From a virus, in the IMG/VR virus record IMGVR_UViG_3300044712_000477, positions 1-42,880 of that record: a stretch of 42,880 bases of DNA; one strand, 5' to 3'. Made by a program: the position numbers and the translations under genes. Below the pieces are notes generated by a model. The model ran no database searches, was not told the origin of the DNA, and was given only the letters and a program-made list of their open reading frames with translations. Of this stretch, positions 6,707 to 37,667 are shown piece by piece. Numbering within the stretch: the first letter of the stretch is position 1; each line of letters starts with the position of its first letter.

Positions 6707-6736
6707 GCCTCGCTCGCAACGAGGCTTTTCTTATTT
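6707..6736. terminator. Hairpin with T-run on the plus strand
   Basis: GCCTCG (6707-6712) pairs with CGAGGC (6720-6725) over 7 nt and is followed on the plus strand by TTTTCTTATTT. All nearby genes read leftward, for which the T-run is on the wrong side, so it may stop antisense transcripts or act as a processing or stability hairpin downstream of the membrane-protein gene that ends at 6731. Confidence 0.4.
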
Positions 6737-6949
6737 AACGACCTTCCTTCTTCGCCAATCCCTTTCAACCATCCCCGTCAAATCCTTATCCAGCCGGGAC
6801 ATAACCTCTTCCCTCTGAGATTCGGATAACCCCATGGGCGCGGGAGTCGATTTTTCAGTTTTCATCTCGTGGTCAATGGCCCCCGGAATGGCTTGTATAA
6901 GGAGGATGAATAAAACCGCCGCCAGTAATGCTAAAATGATGTTTTTCAT
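6731..6949 (-). CDS. Small single-span membrane protein (72 aa)
   Basis: Residues 3-22 form a hydrophobic segment (IILALLAAVLFILLIQAI) followed by a charged soluble tail rich in Glu, Arg and Lys ending RRRKVVK. It could be an inner-membrane protein with a cytoplasmic or periplasmic helix. The start overlaps the upstream stop (ATGA) and has a GAGGAA site. Early-operon membrane proteins of this kind can be superinfection-exclusion or host-takeover factors, but nothing here shows it. Confidence 0.6.
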   Translation of the reverse strand: MKNIILALLAAVLFILLIQAIPGAIDHEMKTEKSTPAPMGLSESQREEVMSRLDKDLTGMVERDWRRRKVVK

Positions 6950-10677: not shown

Positions 10678-11188
10678 TCTCGCCCTCGCCACGGTTCAGT
10701 ATTTGGTCGCGGTTTCGTTCCTGCAGTCGCGCTCCTGGGCATACGCGCCAGCCGTCGAGGTTGCCCGGCAGGCGGCGCGATATGATGAGCTGATCATCGG
10801 CAGTTCGCTGATCCATTGCGCCCTGTTTGGCCGGTCCAGAGATGAGGCCGCCCGCGCTCATTCGGTCCTCAGATACGTTCAAAAGTTCCGTGGTACTCAG
10901 GTTTATGCCGGCGGCCAGATGGTGCAGAACATTCACACGGTAACGAGGATACTGCAATGCTACCTCAATTCGTGCGCCTGCTCCGATCCTGCCGCATACT
11001 GCAGTTTTGTTTTTCAGGGTTACATTATCCCTTGCCGCCAGCTCGACCAGGGCTGGATCATTTTCGATAGCCGTATCCCGGCCACGCCTGCCGCTCAGGT
11101 TGAAGCCGCCGCCGTTCGCCGTGGCGTCAACTGGTGCCCAGTATTCCAGGTGCAGAATGTCCATCAGATTACATCCCACGAAAAATAG
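10667..11188 (+). CDS. Protein of unknown function between lipoprotein and integrase (173 aa)
   Basis: I start this at the ATG 10667, which overlaps the end of the lipoprotein gene; it also overlaps the integrase start by 32 nt. The 173-residue protein has helical amphipathic segments (AVEVARQAARYDELIIG, VLRYVQKFRGTQVYAGGQMVQNI) and a Cys-rich middle (CYLNSCACSDPAAYC). Third codon positions are strongly G/C, as in neighbouring genes, which supports coding on this strand; a long frame on the opposite strand is a shadow. No function can be assigned. Confidence 0.55.
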   Translation: MENDLALATVQYLVAVSFLQSRSWAYAPAVEVARQAARYDELIIGSSLIHCALFGRSRDEAARAHSVLRYVQKFRGTQVYAGGQMVQNIHTVTRILQCYLNSCACSDPAAYCSFVFQGYIIPCRQLDQGWIIFDSRIPATPAAQVEAAAVRRGVNWCPVFQVQNVHQITSHEK

Positions 11189-12224
11189 ACACCTCCCACC
11201 TGAATACATCGGGCCGAAGTGGTGGTATGTCACCTATTACCCTGAAGGGAAGAAGGGCGGCCAGGTGACGGACAGTTTTTACGGCACCAGGGAGGAAGCA
11301 CGATCCTATGACCTCGAACAGCGCCGCGCCTTCCGCAAAAACCCTATTGCTGCCTCAAGCCAATTCAATTCCCTGCTGCCCGATTTTGTGGCCTCATACC
11401 GCCTTGACCATTTGCCGCAAGGGGTAGAGCGCACCATGCGGTCCCTGGACATCCTGAGCCGGTTTTTTGGCAGGCACAACATAACCTCGATAACTCCAGG
11501 GATGGTAGAGGAATACAAACGCCTGCGCCTGGAAGAGGGTGTCAAACCGGTCACGGTCAATAAAGAACTGTGCGCCCTGTCCACGCTACTGAAATGGGCC
11601 GCTGAGAACGATTACTGTGAGCCGCCAGCCAGAGTAAAAAAGTTCCCCGGCAAGGTTACGAAATCCCCGGTTCCAGTTGTACCGCCTGGCAATGATTTCG
11701 AACGGATCATCGAGCACATGGACCCGCGCACCCGTGGTCTAGCCATGCTGATGTTTTACTGTGGGCTCCGGAGAAATGAAGCTCTACACCTTCAGGCTGA
11801 AGATGTATTGCTCGAGCGGCGCTTGCTGATCGTGAGAGGGAAGGGGAACAAGCAACGGATTGTCCCGCTTCAGCACCCGGAGTTGATCGAGGAACTGAAA
11901 AAGAAACTGGAGGAAGTTAAAAGCGGAGTGCTGTGGATATCGCCATACACCGGGGAATCATACAAGGACATTCGGGACGGCATGAAGGCCGCGGCAAAAC
12001 GAGCAGGGGTTGGTGGTCGCGTTTACAATCACCTACTACGTCACGGATTCGGGACCACGGCCACGGAAAGCGGTATATCCCTGCGCAGCGTTCAAGAGCT
12101 TATGGGACACTCGACCAGCCAAGTCACGGAACTCTACACCCACATTGCCGCAGCGCACCTGACGAGAGAGATGAAAAAGTTTAAGCCCGTAACAAATAAA
12201 GACGATGATAAACCGGCTGAATAA
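11157..12224 (+). CDS. int: Tyrosine recombinase, phage integrase (355 aa)
   Basis: A site-specific tyrosine integrase. The N-terminal arm/core-binding part (about 65-165) precedes the catalytic domain with all six expected residues visible: R205 (CGLRRNEAL), K229 (RGKGNKQRIVPL), H292 and R295 (NHLLRHGFG), H318 (LMGHST) and nucleophile Y327 (LYTHI). I chose the ATG at 11157 (AGGT upstream) because the longer frame has an unconserved basic start that overlaps the preceding gene. It lies 128 nt upstream of a tRNA-Leu gene, the likely attachment region. Confidence 0.92.
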   Translation: MSIRLHPTKNRHLPPEYIGPKWWYVTYYPEGKKGGQVTDSFYGTREEARSYDLEQRRAFRKNPIAASSQFNSLLPDFVASYRLDHLPQGVERTMRSLDILSRFFGRHNITSITPGMVEEYKRLRLEEGVKPVTVNKELCALSTLLKWAAENDYCEPPARVKKFPGKVTKSPVPVVPPGNDFERIIEHMDPRTRGLAMLMFYCGLRRNEALHLQAEDVLLERRLLIVRGKGNKQRIVPLQHPELIEELKKKLEEVKSGVLWISPYTGESYKDIRDGMKAAAKRAGVGGRVYNHLLRHGFGTTATESGISLRSVQELMGHSTSQVTELYTHIAAAHLTREMKKFKPVTNKDDDKPAE

Positions 12225-12320
12225 GCGTGCTCGCCACCACCACGAAGGGGCTTAAAATCCCACCTGTGTTTCTTGATAGTTAATTATACTGATAACTTGC
12301 GACCCTGAAATACAGAAAAG

Positions 12321-12340
12321 TTCAATACAATTCAATACCA
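12321..12340 (+). repeat. Tandem 10-bp repeat just upstream of the tRNA gene
   Basis: Two copies of TTCAATACaA (12321-12330 and 12331-12340) differ at one base and are spaced exactly one helical turn, ending 12 nt before the tRNA. They could be integrase arm-type sites of attP or part of the tRNA promoter. Confidence 0.5.
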
Positions 12341-12352
12341 TTATCTATTTGT

Positions 12353-12439
12353 GCCGAAGTGGCGAAATTGGTAGACGCACGAGACTCAAAATCTCGCGGG
12401 GGCAACCTCATGCCGGTTCGATTCCGGCCTTCGGTACCA
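12353..12439 (+). tRNA. tRNA-Leu (anticodon CAA), CCA encoded
   Basis: A full cloverleaf can be drawn. The acceptor stem GCCGAAG (12353-12359) pairs with CTTCGGT (12429-12435), with a G1:U72 wobble in place of the usual G1:C72. The anticodon stem CGAGA/TCTCG encloses the loop CTCAAAA with anticodon CAA at 12387-12389. A long class II variable arm (12397-12411) and the T arm GCCGG-TTCGATT-CCGGC follow. Discriminator A and CCA are encoded. It closely resembles bacterial tRNA-Leu and reads UUG codons. It is either a phage-carried tRNA or the attP locus that rebuilds a host tRNA on integration. Confidence 0.95.
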
Positions 12440-12892: not shown

Positions 12893-13123
12893 CTATTTCC
12901 CCACCAACGCATCAATCGCCCCTGCCGCGCCACCTGTCAATGCCCCTGCCAGTGTTTGGGCCGGGATGGTGACGGAGGGGGTGACGGGAACATTCTTATT
13001 AGCATTGATGTTGATTGCCAGTGACGATGTTGGAGCTGCACCGACGGGGAGGTTGACGGTACAGTTGACGGTTGTACAACCGCACAAGCTAATTGCCAGT
13101 GCCAGCAGTATTATTGTTCGCAT
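12893..13123 (-). CDS. Small lipoprotein, possible outer spanin (76 aa)
   Basis: Residues 1-16 form a lipoprotein signal (MRTIILLALAISLCGC, Cys16). The mature 60 residues are low in charge and rich in Val, Thr, Ala, Pro and Gly. It follows the two-span membrane protein, overlapping its gene by 35 nt, in a region containing the endolysin, so a spanin (Rz1-type) role is possible though it is less proline-rich than classical Rz1. AAGGAG lies 7 nt before the ATG. Confidence 0.6.
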   Translation of the reverse strand: MRTIILLALAISLCGCTTVNCTVNLPVGAAPTSSLAININANKNVPVTPSVTIPAQTLAGALTGGAAGAIDALVGK

Positions 13124-16351: not shown

Positions 16352-16801
16352 TTAAATATTTCCGCTCCACAACTGAATTTCTTTCTCCCTCCGGTTTGCC
16401 AGTCCCGCACAGCGTTTACCATTTACCCGGACCCACTTGCGGAGTTCGTAGGGCACAAGCAAGAAATTGCCGCTGTTGAGCCTCTTCAGCAGTGTTGACT
16501 TGCGAAATGCGCCACATCCGACGTTGAAGGCGAAAATCACCAGGGCGTCGAACTCAAACTGATCGAGCGGAAACGTCACGGCGTCATTTACCGTGCGTTC
16601 TACCGGCCCCACATCAGCCGTAAGCAGATTGATCGCCTCCTCATCGGTGATACCATCATCGAACTTGCCACCCACTATTTCCTCACGTGTCAAGAGATGC
16701 CCAACTCCGATTGTAGCCCTACCTCCCGCATCTTTGTAGACCTGACACCGGCACCCTTCCCATTCCTTAAGTAAGTCAAGTCCGTGTTGACTGATTTTCA
16801 T
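16352..16801 (-). CDS. Endolysin, T4-type lysozyme (GH24, 149 aa)
   Basis: A muramidase that cuts the glycan backbone of peptidoglycan at lysis. The catalytic triad of the T4 lysozyme family is visible: E15 in LKEWEGC, D24 in VYKDAGG and T30 in RATIGVGH. Further conserved parts are QFEFDALVIFAFNVGCGAF and the C-terminal GLANRREKEIQLW. There is no signal-arrest-release or Sec signal, so release depends on a holin. Its ATG overlaps its own operator-proximal neighbour's stop (ATGA), with GGAGG upstream. Confidence 0.92.
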   Translation of the reverse strand: MKISQHGLDLLKEWEGCRCQVYKDAGGRATIGVGHLLTREEIVGGKFDDGITDEEAINLLTADVGPVERTVNDAVTFPLDQFEFDALVIFAFNVGCGAFRKSTLLKRLNSGNFLLVPYELRKWVRVNGKRCAGLANRREKEIQLWSGNI

Positions 16802-34925: not shown

Positions 34926-35276
34926 TTACTTCAGCTGGAACATCTGCTTGGTCTGGTTCGTGGACACACACAGGAAGGCTTTCGAGTAGTCGGAACTCAT
35001 CGACCACGCGCCTTTCGTGCAGCTCGTTGATGCTGTCGGCCAGGACTTGACCACGATCACGAACCCGGCCCTTAGAAAGTCGTCAATCCTTCGATCCGGA
35101 ACGGTAACCTGGCCGTTTGCGTCCGGGGTGTACACATTGCCGTCACGGTCGGTATACTTGGCAACGCCCGACGGGAATGCAACAGTGGTGGACGCCTGGC
35201 TGATCAGCGGGAACATGGTCAGTGCGGCAATCGCCAAGAACATCAAGCAAACCAGCGCGGTATAGAATTTTTTCAT
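34926..35276 (-). CDS. Secreted 'NGxVxVP' protein (116 aa)
   Basis: A Sec signal peptide (MKKFYTALVCLMFLAIAALTMFPLISQAS) is followed by VAKYTDRDGNVYTPDANGQVTVPDRRIDDFLRAGFVIV and a C-terminal part ending CVSTNQTKQMFQLK. The middle pattern is shared with the cytosolic head-associated protein at 31404-31604, so the two appear to be related folds, one with a signal peptide. I chose the ATG at 35274-35276, 7 nt after AGGAG. It sits between the membrane protein and the portal gene. Confidence 0.6.
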   Translation of the reverse strand: MKKFYTALVCLMFLAIAALTMFPLISQASTTVAFPSGVAKYTDRDGNVYTPDANGQVTVPDRRIDDFLRAGFVIVVKSWPTASTSCTKGAWSMSSDYSKAFLCVSTNQTKQMFQLK

Positions 35277-35321
35277 GGTCATTCTCCTCCCTGCCCGCAA
35301 CAGGGCAGCATCAGGTTATCG

Positions 35322-37667
35322 TTATTCGGGGCTTGCCCCTGTTTCTTCTTCGTCCATCACGACCGGAATGCAATCACAGACACAACGAGGATGGGCGGGC
35401 GCGGTGTCGGAGCCGTCAGGGAAAACATCATCTAAACCAATAACCCCAGCCGATTCGTTTTCATCACATTCATCTTCCTCTTGTTCTCCGTGCTCACTCC
35501 CTACCAGCCACTCTTTTCCAGTCACTATCCCGCTTGCCCGATATGCCGCCATGTTTCCTTCTGAGTCGGCAAAAGCAACTTCCGTCCTGGCTATCATCTC
35601 GGCCCTGCTGTCGCTAAAGGCCGTCGAGCCCTTGATCTCTGTTTCCAGCTTCTGAGTGCTCCAGCCTTCTTCAACCGCATCTGATACGGTAGAGCGGAGC
35701 ATATCGCGGGTACTACCGGTAATCGACCATTCCGCGTCGGGGTTCTCTATCCAGTCGGGATTTTCCTTGGTCCCGATGTTCCTCATCCCTACCAGTTCAG
35801 CGCCCCGATCTTCCGCGTACTCAAGCGCCCGCGTGTTCATCAGGTTGGTGATGTTCTCTTCAGGTTCAAAATTGATCTGGATGAATCCCTCAGACGCGCC
35901 ATCAGCAAAAACTCTTTCCAGCACTTCACATGCCGGTTCTATCAGGTCGGACCAGTTTTTAAAATCCAGTGCTTCAACGATCCGGGCAACGATCCCGTCT
36001 TGTTCTAGTGAGCCCTTCAGGGTCTCGTATGCTCCAGTAACCTGAGCGGCGGCCTCTTCGCTGCGTTCGTTCAGAAAGTCAATGAGGATTGCCCGCAGTT
36101 CCTTCCTGGTCTTGGCTATTACCGGTCGGTCCCGGTCGATACGGGGAATGGACTTTTTTTTTACTCGTTCAATTCGTTCAACATCCGGCGTCGAAACTTT
36201 CTGAACCGCTCCATCCTTGCCCGCTCCTCCCGATCCTCCAGCTGCTGCTTTTCCTGGTCCGTCGGCTGCGTCGGGCTTGAACTTTTTGTCCTTGGCAGTA
36301 TCAGTATTGCCAGCACTGCCAGCACTTGAGTTGCCAGTACCAGGATTGCTATTTTCATCGTTCCCCCCTGGACTACTCATCACGGGCGGCAACGGCTTCT
36401 CCGGTGCCGGTCCTTCCAGCCCTAAGCGGTCTCGCACTTCCTCTGGACTTACCACATACGTCGCGAGATAAATCTGGTCGACCTGCGCCTGTACCAGCGG
36501 GTCAACGTCTTTCGGCTGTTCATACGAGCATTCGAGGTCCTGGTAACCGAAATACTTCCAGATGATCATATCGACCAAGCCCTTGACCCAGGCCAAAATA
36601 GGCGCGTTACCCTGCTCCTTGGCTGCCTCGCTTGCATTTTCTGCCGTGGCCCGGTTCATCTGCTTGATAAACGGTGTCGGCTCTCGTCCGAAGGCGAAAC
36701 AGGTCACTCGGGCAAGCCATTCGTCGTACTCGTCCTTGAGCGCCTTTTCCTTGGTGTCGATCACCTGAGCGCCGCCCGGAATAAACCGCGCACCTCGGCG
36801 GGCGGCTGTGTTCCCGGTCAGGATAGAGTCCCAGAAATCCTGAAACGCCTTGATCTGGTCAGGGTTCCACTCAGGCGGGCAGCCGATGATCGAATCAGGC
36901 GTGTTGCCGTCGGTGTAGTACTGAAGCTGGTGCAGCTGCCGCCGTATGGCGATGTTGACCGTGATGATGATCTGCTCGACCGGCGAGTAGCCGTAAACGC
37001 GATTGCTGCGCTTATTGCGCGGGAAATAGATCAGCTTATCAGCCGAGTAGTCCACTGCCGGAACGCCCTTGATGTACTGCTGATATGCCGGGTCAGGGGG
37101 CAGGGGAGTGCGGCCCGACTCGTCCATGACTCGCTTGATCAGCGCACCGTCCATGATGTCGAGGGCGTAAGGCTTGCCACCCTTGGTCATGCGCGGGTAG
37201 ATCGTGGCCGCGTCGATAACCAGCATATCCTCAAGCACCTGTCTCAACCACTGCTGCCATGGGTGCTGACGGTCGGGGAAGGCAAGGAATTCTTGGACCT
37301 CTTTGCAGCGTGCGTCCTCTTCTGCGTCAACGTCCTTCGGCTTGATCTTGAATTCGACAAGGCAAATCTGGTCCTTGACGGTTTCGATTACCAGGCGCAG
37401 TAGGTCATAAGAGTCGGCCAGGGTACGCAGCTGCTCAAAGGAAATCGGCTCATCCTGGCGCGGGACATAGCGCAGGTTATAACCAACGGGGTAATCCCAT
37501 TGGCGGCCCTGCATGGGCTCTTGGAATACGGGCTGGATAGGTTGACCGGGAGAAAAGGGAACGGCGTCAAGCGCCTGGCCGGGAGTTTTGCCGGATAGGA
37601 CGAACTTGACGCCGTCGATGAGGCGAGCCATAAAACTGAGATCGGTTGTCTTGCCGCCTTCTGGCAT
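35322..37667 (-). CDS. Portal protein fused to MuF-like minor head protein (781 aa)
   Basis: Residues about 40-430 are a phage portal (LRLVIETVKDQICLVEFKIK, VIDAATIYPRMTKGG, YGYSPVEQIIITVNIAIRRQ, the FGREPTPFIKQMNRATAE clip motif). A low-complexity Asn/Ser/Gly/Lys linker spans about 438-510. Residues 530-781 are a MuF/SPP1 gp7-like domain ending in the RTEVAFADSEGNMAAYRASG helix and the PAHPRCVCDCIPVV metal/Cys motif. The two are usually separate genes. In the linker there is a nested out-of-frame gene and an A9 run with a slippery heptamer that could release the portal alone. Confidence 0.88.
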   Translation of the reverse strand: MPEGGKTTDLSFMARLIDGVKFVLSGKTPGQALDAVPFSPGQPIQPVFQEPMQGRQWDYPVGYNLRYVPRQDEPISFEQLRTLADSYDLLRLVIETVKDQICLVEFKIKPKDVDAEEDARCKEVQEFLAFPDRQHPWQQWLRQVLEDMLVIDAATIYPRMTKGGKPYALDIMDGALIKRVMDESGRTPLPPDPAYQQYIKGVPAVDYSADKLIYFPRNKRSNRVYGYSPVEQIIITVNIAIRRQLHQLQYYTDGNTPDSIIGCPPEWNPDQIKAFQDFWDSILTGNTAARRGARFIPGGAQVIDTKEKALKDEYDEWLARVTCFAFGREPTPFIKQMNRATAENASEAAKEQGNAPILAWVKGLVDMIIWKYFGYQDLECSYEQPKDVDPLVQAQVDQIYLATYVVSPEEVRDRLGLEGPAPEKPLPPVMSSPGGNDENSNPGTGNSSAGSAGNTDTAKDKKFKPDAADGPGKAAAGGSGGAGKDGAVQKVSTPDVERIERVKKKSIPRIDRDRPVIAKTRKELRAILIDFLNERSEEAAAQVTGAYETLKGSLEQDGIVARIVEALDFKNWSDLIEPACEVLERVFADGASEGFIQINFEPEENITNLMNTRALEYAEDRGAELVGMRNIGTKENPDWIENPDAEWSITGSTRDMLRSTVSDAVEEGWSTQKLETEIKGSTAFSDSRAEMIARTEVAFADSEGNMAAYRASGIVTGKEWLVGSEHGEQEEDECDENESAGVIGLDDVFPDGSDTAPAHPRCVCDCIPVVMDEEETGASPE
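36154..36162 (-). other. A9 homopolymer with A-AAA-AAG slippery heptamer in the portal-MuF frame
   Basis: The minus strand reads GTA AAA AAA AAG in the portal frame, which contains A-AAA-AAG, the dnaX-type heptamer. A -1 shift here ends after 24 further codons (next -1 stop TGA), giving a portal without MuF. A homopolymer of this length may also cause transcriptional slippage, or be a sequencing error. Confidence 0.5.
36161..36358 (-). CDS. Candidate nested membrane protein in the portal-MuF linker (65 aa)
   Basis: Inside the linker of the portal-MuF gene, in the +1 frame, an ATG with a strong AGGGGGG site 5 nt upstream opens 65 codons: a transmembrane N terminus (MKIAILVLATQVLAVLAILILP) and a basic/acidic helical tail (QQLEDREERARMERFRKFRR). 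The TAA lies at the A9 run. The host frame here has an unusual excess of A/T-ending codons (GCT, ACT, AGT, AAT), as expected if this second frame were selected for. It resembles small phage lysis or inner-membrane proteins, but is not matched to a family. Confidence 0.45.
   Translation of the reverse strand: MKIAILVLATQVLAVLAILILPRTKSSSPTQPTDQEKQQLEDREERARMERFRKFRRRMLNELNE

Follow-up and report, generated by a model that had tools for sequence, protein, structure and literature searches.

The phage and its portal–MuF gene

Does the gene for the portal–MuF fusion protein of a temperate tailed phage encode a second, small membrane protein in another reading frame? Open reading frames (ORFs) nested in another gene are dropped by standard annotation, and such a nested gene was suggested in a preliminary description of the window, by which the whole stretch of DNA analysed (42,880 nt) is meant. 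The window, a virus record of 42.9 kb, represents a temperate phage with an integrase gene (11007–12224), terminase and lysozyme genes and tail genes, the tape measure among them. The features relevant to the question are the following:

35322–37667, minus strand: portal–MuF fusion, host gene of the nested ORF (781 aa; Pfam Phage_portal and Phage_Mu_F; phrog_2662)
36369–36363, minus strand: SD-like AGGGGGG, 4 nt 5′ of the nested ATG
36161–36358, minus strand: nested ORF, ATG at 36358, TAA at 36163–36161; 65 aa, MKIAILVLATQVLAVLAILILPRTK...NELNE
36296–36355, minus strand: predicted membrane helix, nested ORF residues 2–21 (KD 2.95; AlphaFold2 helix 2–20)
36308–36326, minus strand: 9-nt tandem repeat GTGCTGGCA, encoding VLA-VLA, part of the membrane segment
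36164–36295, minus strand: tail of the nested ORF, charged and predicted to be helical; not in the relative L007
37763–39187 and 39184–39714: terminase subunits
16352–16801: lysozyme (Phage_lysozyme) gene, separate from the nested ORF

Behind the integrase gene, on the plus strand, lies a complete gene for tRNA-Leu (CAA) (12353–12439; region 11007–12439), which is a possible attachment site.

The linker between the portal and MuF parts comprises about residues 420–512 of the 781-aa protein. The nested ORF reads in the +1 frame of the portal–MuF ORF. The ORF was found as it had been described, with 65 codons, an AGGGGGG site, a hydrophobic N terminus and a charged tail.

The start site and the membrane segment

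The pairing of the AGGGGGG site with the anti-SD sequence was calculated at -10.2 kcal/mol. The median for the 24 gene starts of the phage is -6.1 kcal/mol, and the nested start outscores 21 of them. It is also the strongest among the 183 internal out-of-frame ATGs in the phage, which bears out the earlier claim of a strong site. RNA folding near the nested start is unremarkable (z -0.5). The locus has two features expected of an overprinted gene, a second open frame with a start codon inside a verified gene and, at this pairing energy, a ribosome-binding site of its own.

The membrane N terminus, also claimed previously, is predicted from a KD of 2.95 across 17 residues. AlphaFold2, run on the single nested sequence, places helices at residues 2–20 and 34–64 (mean pLDDT 77). 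Across 175 related portals, no other out-of-frame segment is as hydrophobic. When synonymous codons were drawn 20,000 times according to the codon usage of the genome, a KD of 2.8 was never reached, and shuffling of synonymous codons inside the linker reached it 5 times in 100,000 (1 of 20,000). The 9-nt repeat builds part of the segment. Restricting every amino acid to one codon raises the probability of the observed segment to 0.005, and with linked (repeated) codons an ATG followed by a KD of 2.5 anywhere in the window linker has a P of 0.06. One other out-of-frame ORF with an ATG, an SD-like site and a KD of at least 2.8 was found in 1.3 Mb of long ORFs of the collected loci; it lies inside an ORF of 527 codons (L156, minus strand) and, judged by eye, looks like an ordinary membrane gene. 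Apart from the 9-nt repeat, the combination of the membrane segment and the start site is unusual.

The length of the ORF was ruled out as evidence, since it is expected from the composition of the host gene. With the host amino acids fixed, 59% of the synonymous resamplings contain a +1 frame that stays open for 71 codons or more. Stops in the +1 frame need host codons with T at the second position, which are scarce in the hydrophilic linker, and the +1 frame of the linker therefore rarely makes them. The preference of the host frame for A/T-ending codons had been read as a sign of constraint by the second frame. The bias itself is real: 16 T-ending codons are observed in codons 431–463 versus 7.2 expected, and the T3 z score of this stretch is the highest among the 8528 codon windows scored in the phage. 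However, the bias is ruled out as a specific sign of a second frame, as the linkers of 74 relatives shift likewise (mean z of +0.6 for T3, +1.0 for A3 and -1.0 for C3), including linkers without any nested ORF. The charged tail was ruled out as well. Its charge does not change when synonymous codons are shuffled inside the tail; the tail is charged because the host codons end in A, so that third-base composition accounts for it, and it has no counterpart in L007.

No match of the nested protein to Pfam or PHROG families, including the holin and spanin families, was obtained at an E value of 0.01. A tblastn search against 50,697 phage records gave no match, and no relative of the nested protein was found by the viral-contig scan and by BLAST against the ORFs of the collected loci.

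The nested frame in related portal genes

Profile searches gave about 160 portal relatives, most of them 36–59% identical. The closest one found is L007 (IMGVR_UViG_3300025030_000578), with a portal identity of 55% in pairwise alignment and 52% over the first 620 residues. The relative L169 (IMGVR_UViG_3300037225_000162), which was found via the EGPAPEKP motif, is as close as L007, and the three portals form a clade with a support of 100/99. A portal closer than these two was not found in viral-contig scans, genome scans and surveys of other genomes.

In the initial ORF scan the nested ORF was seen in the window alone; L007 was absent because the scan had a minimum of 35 aa, and a +1 scan of the aligned linkers then revealed it. 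The L007 linker reads GGGGG-CAAAAA-ATG, then MTMILAALAVPALMVLAASVFLVIKSR-stop, in the same +1 frame and at nearly the same spot as in the window:

5382–5465 of L007: nested ORF, 27 codons, KD 2.71, SD pairing -8.4 kcal/mol

The predicted 27-codon peptide is nearly all membrane helix and has no long charged tail. What the two peptides share is the membrane span and its short basic terminus (RTK, KSR); only the window has the long tail. In the host alignment the two starts are offset by no more than about a codon and do not fall on exactly the same one, and the similarity of the two peptides does not go beyond composition (P 0.14). Fourfold third positions of the two portal genes are 37% identical versus 28% at saturation. 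Since these sites are near saturation, the nested feature common to both phages is unlikely to be mere inertia.

The L169 linker has kept GGGG, but both the start codon and the membrane segment are missing. In none of the other portals scanned do an ATG, an SD-like site and a comparable segment occur together. L071 contains a hydrophobic +1 linker ORF (KD 2.42) that lacks an SD-like site. In L022 and the near-identical L023–L026, whose portal is shorter, a 23-codon TTG ORF (KD 2.4–2.9) is located at residue 510. A comparable membrane segment together with a start is present in L007 and absent from L169 and the more distant relatives. The preliminary description had regarded loss of the frame from a retained linker as refuting a gene, and such loss is seen in L169, within the same clade, and in the more distant relatives. 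Judged from sequence, this loss agrees equally well with chance and with a gene that is young or unstable.

Under synonymous-codon nulls, the joint occurrence of ATG, SD-like site and segment has a probability of about 0.0002–0.006 per positive linker (window and L007). For L007 it is 0.002 by resampling to 0.006 by shuffling, and 0.01–0.02 for ATG and segment alone; the window is a post hoc choice, being the pick of the earlier reader, whereas L007 was not picked by that reader. Under the linked-codon null, ATG and segment together have a probability of 0.06 in the window and 0.14 in L007. Among 74 linkers, with third-base preferences fitted to each of them, an ATG with a +1 segment of KD 2.7 or more is expected 0.006 times and observed twice, both times in one small clade.

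Overprinted gene, chance or frameshift

We consider it an even chance that the nested ORF is a translated, young, unstable and fast-evolving overprinted membrane mini-gene, a reading drawn from sequence features. The strength of the start, the hydrophobicity of the segment, the similar nested ORF of L007 and the excess of such linkers over expectation count for it. Its absence from L169, the lack of the tail in L007, the repeat-built segment, the linked-codon probabilities, the offset start codons, the low likeness of the two peptides (P 0.14), the missing family match and the post hoc choice count against it. The main rival explanation, which falls somewhat short of an even chance, is that the ORF is a by-product of a repetitive linker rich in T-ending codons and that nothing has been selected. 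On this view a T-rich linker of Gly, Ser, Ala, Pro, Asn and Asp in this clade reads by accident as hydrophobic in the +1 frame, and Gly GGG followed by GAT-G may quite conceivably have supplied both the SD-like site and the ATG. Open +1 runs are expected from a hydrophilic linker, the A/T-ending shift is general among portal–MuF linkers, which would also drift to short repeats, and the repeat contributes to the segment. Moreover, L169 retains GGGG without any ORF, L071 has a hydrophobic +1 ORF without an SD-like site, and the linked-codon null gives 0.06–0.14. What chance accounts for poorly is that all three elements coincide, at the low joint probabilities given above, in each of two diverged linkers, that two such linkers belong to one small clade, and that the nested start is stronger than most real gene starts.

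Programmed frameshifting and transcriptional slippage are established decoding devices, and the +1 segment could also be reached by slippage at G6 in the window or at G5/A6 in L007. The portal would then be cut before MuF and end in a membrane anchor. In both phages the stretch of open +1 frame ahead of the ATG is just 6–7 codons long, and the homopolymer runs lie exactly there. We nevertheless regard frameshifting as very improbable: a canonical slippery motif is lacking, the homopolymer runs differ between the window and L007, and slippage needs no ATG at SD spacing. The idea of an overprinted gene in the preliminary description is partly supported, on other arguments. The ORF, its start site, the membrane N terminus and the L007 counterpart stand, while start-site strength and the L007 nested segment replace codon bias and charged tail.

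Proposed origin and function of the nested product

We propose that, if the nested gene is real, ribosomes would initiate internally at AGGGGGG-ATG on the late portal (head-gene) mRNA. The product would be a small single-span membrane protein of 65 aa in the window and 27 aa in L007. The linker can host a nested gene because its conservation is low and, as it is poor in Leu, Ile, Val and Met, it makes hardly any +1 stops; with T at the wobble position, its codons for Gly, Ala, Ser, Thr, Pro, Asn and Asp read in +1 as a string of Leu, Val, Ile and Ala. We infer translation and membrane insertion of the product, whose location would be the inner membrane at a late stage of infection. The earlier proposal of a role in lysis or in membrane targeting of head assembly is a guess. 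A holin-like, lysis-timing or envelope-modifying role is the most likely guess, in itself a doubtful one.

The closest parallel is provided by the embedded sgl (single-gene lysis) genes of ssRNA leviviruses, for which candidates were required to have at least 25 codons, an SD sequence and a membrane domain (PMC7693330). The functional ones are often located in the +1 frame of poorly conserved host regions and are quickly gained and lost between relatives (PMC7693330). The nested ORFs of the window (65 codons) and L007 (27 codons) share the minimum length, the SD sequence and a membrane domain, the latter predicted by hydropathy (KD 2.95 and 2.71). The nested ORF is likewise wholly embedded in the +1 frame of a poorly conserved stretch. 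In contrast to the sgl genes, it belongs to a dsDNA tailed phage, its lysis role is putative and there are two examples only. Nor is it a single-gene lysis system, because the phage has a separate lysozyme gene.

Gene E of the small ssDNA phage phiX174 is a lysis gene nested in gene D, a scaffold gene. Like the nested ORF, it lies on the sense strand in another frame and combines an N-terminal membrane span with a charged C-terminal part. The likeness is one of layout, and a sequence relation to this gene in a scaffold gene of an ssDNA phage is not expected. In the i-spanins of tailed phages a charged helix comes after an N-terminal membrane span, and in the Rz/Rz1 pair Rz1 is a nested gene. 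The nested ORF shows the same span and charged helix; in contrast to the spanins, it has no Pfam or PHROG match and is not located beside the lysozyme gene, and its L007 version is tailless.

Translation of the nested ORF would mean that tailed phages make a second product, a membrane protein, from a core head gene. Hydrophilic linkers have by their composition a +1 frame nearly free of stops, which T-ending codons render hydrophobic, and would in that case be a general birthplace of new membrane genes. It is conceivable, though improbable, that a clade of temperate tailed phages makes late membrane peptides out of frame in the disordered portal–MuF linker. The peptides would then parallel, in dsDNA phages, the embedded lysis genes that ssRNA phages have, and the linker would be a nursery of membrane genes. 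The case supplies a calibrated test that combines start-site energy, a membrane segment, a linker-matched codon null and the nearest relatives.

Other small proteins and sequence features

Further small membrane-protein candidates are encoded in the phage at 13089–13268, 34641–34910, 6946–7155 and 6731–6949. The last two, on the minus strand, overlap by 4 nt and have no family match. The 72-aa ORF 6731–6949 resembles the nested ORF in layout, with MK, a membrane span, Pro and a charged end containing RRR. It is also the best match of the nested protein in the window (pair E value 0.001); homology is not claimed, as segment-preserving shuffles gave a P of 0.02 and the tail alone a P of 0.16. 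Just past the linker, the conserved ERIERVKKK motif has an A9 run in its KKK codons (~36155 on the minus strand of the window, ~5500 in L007), which is a possible slippage site. Downstream of the portal gene, 34926–35282 (minus strand) encodes a 118-aa protein with a signal-like N terminus. Stretches resembling this protein are located near the portal in L010, L043, L054, L056 and L060, and a weaker resemblance is seen in a 411-aa protein of L007.
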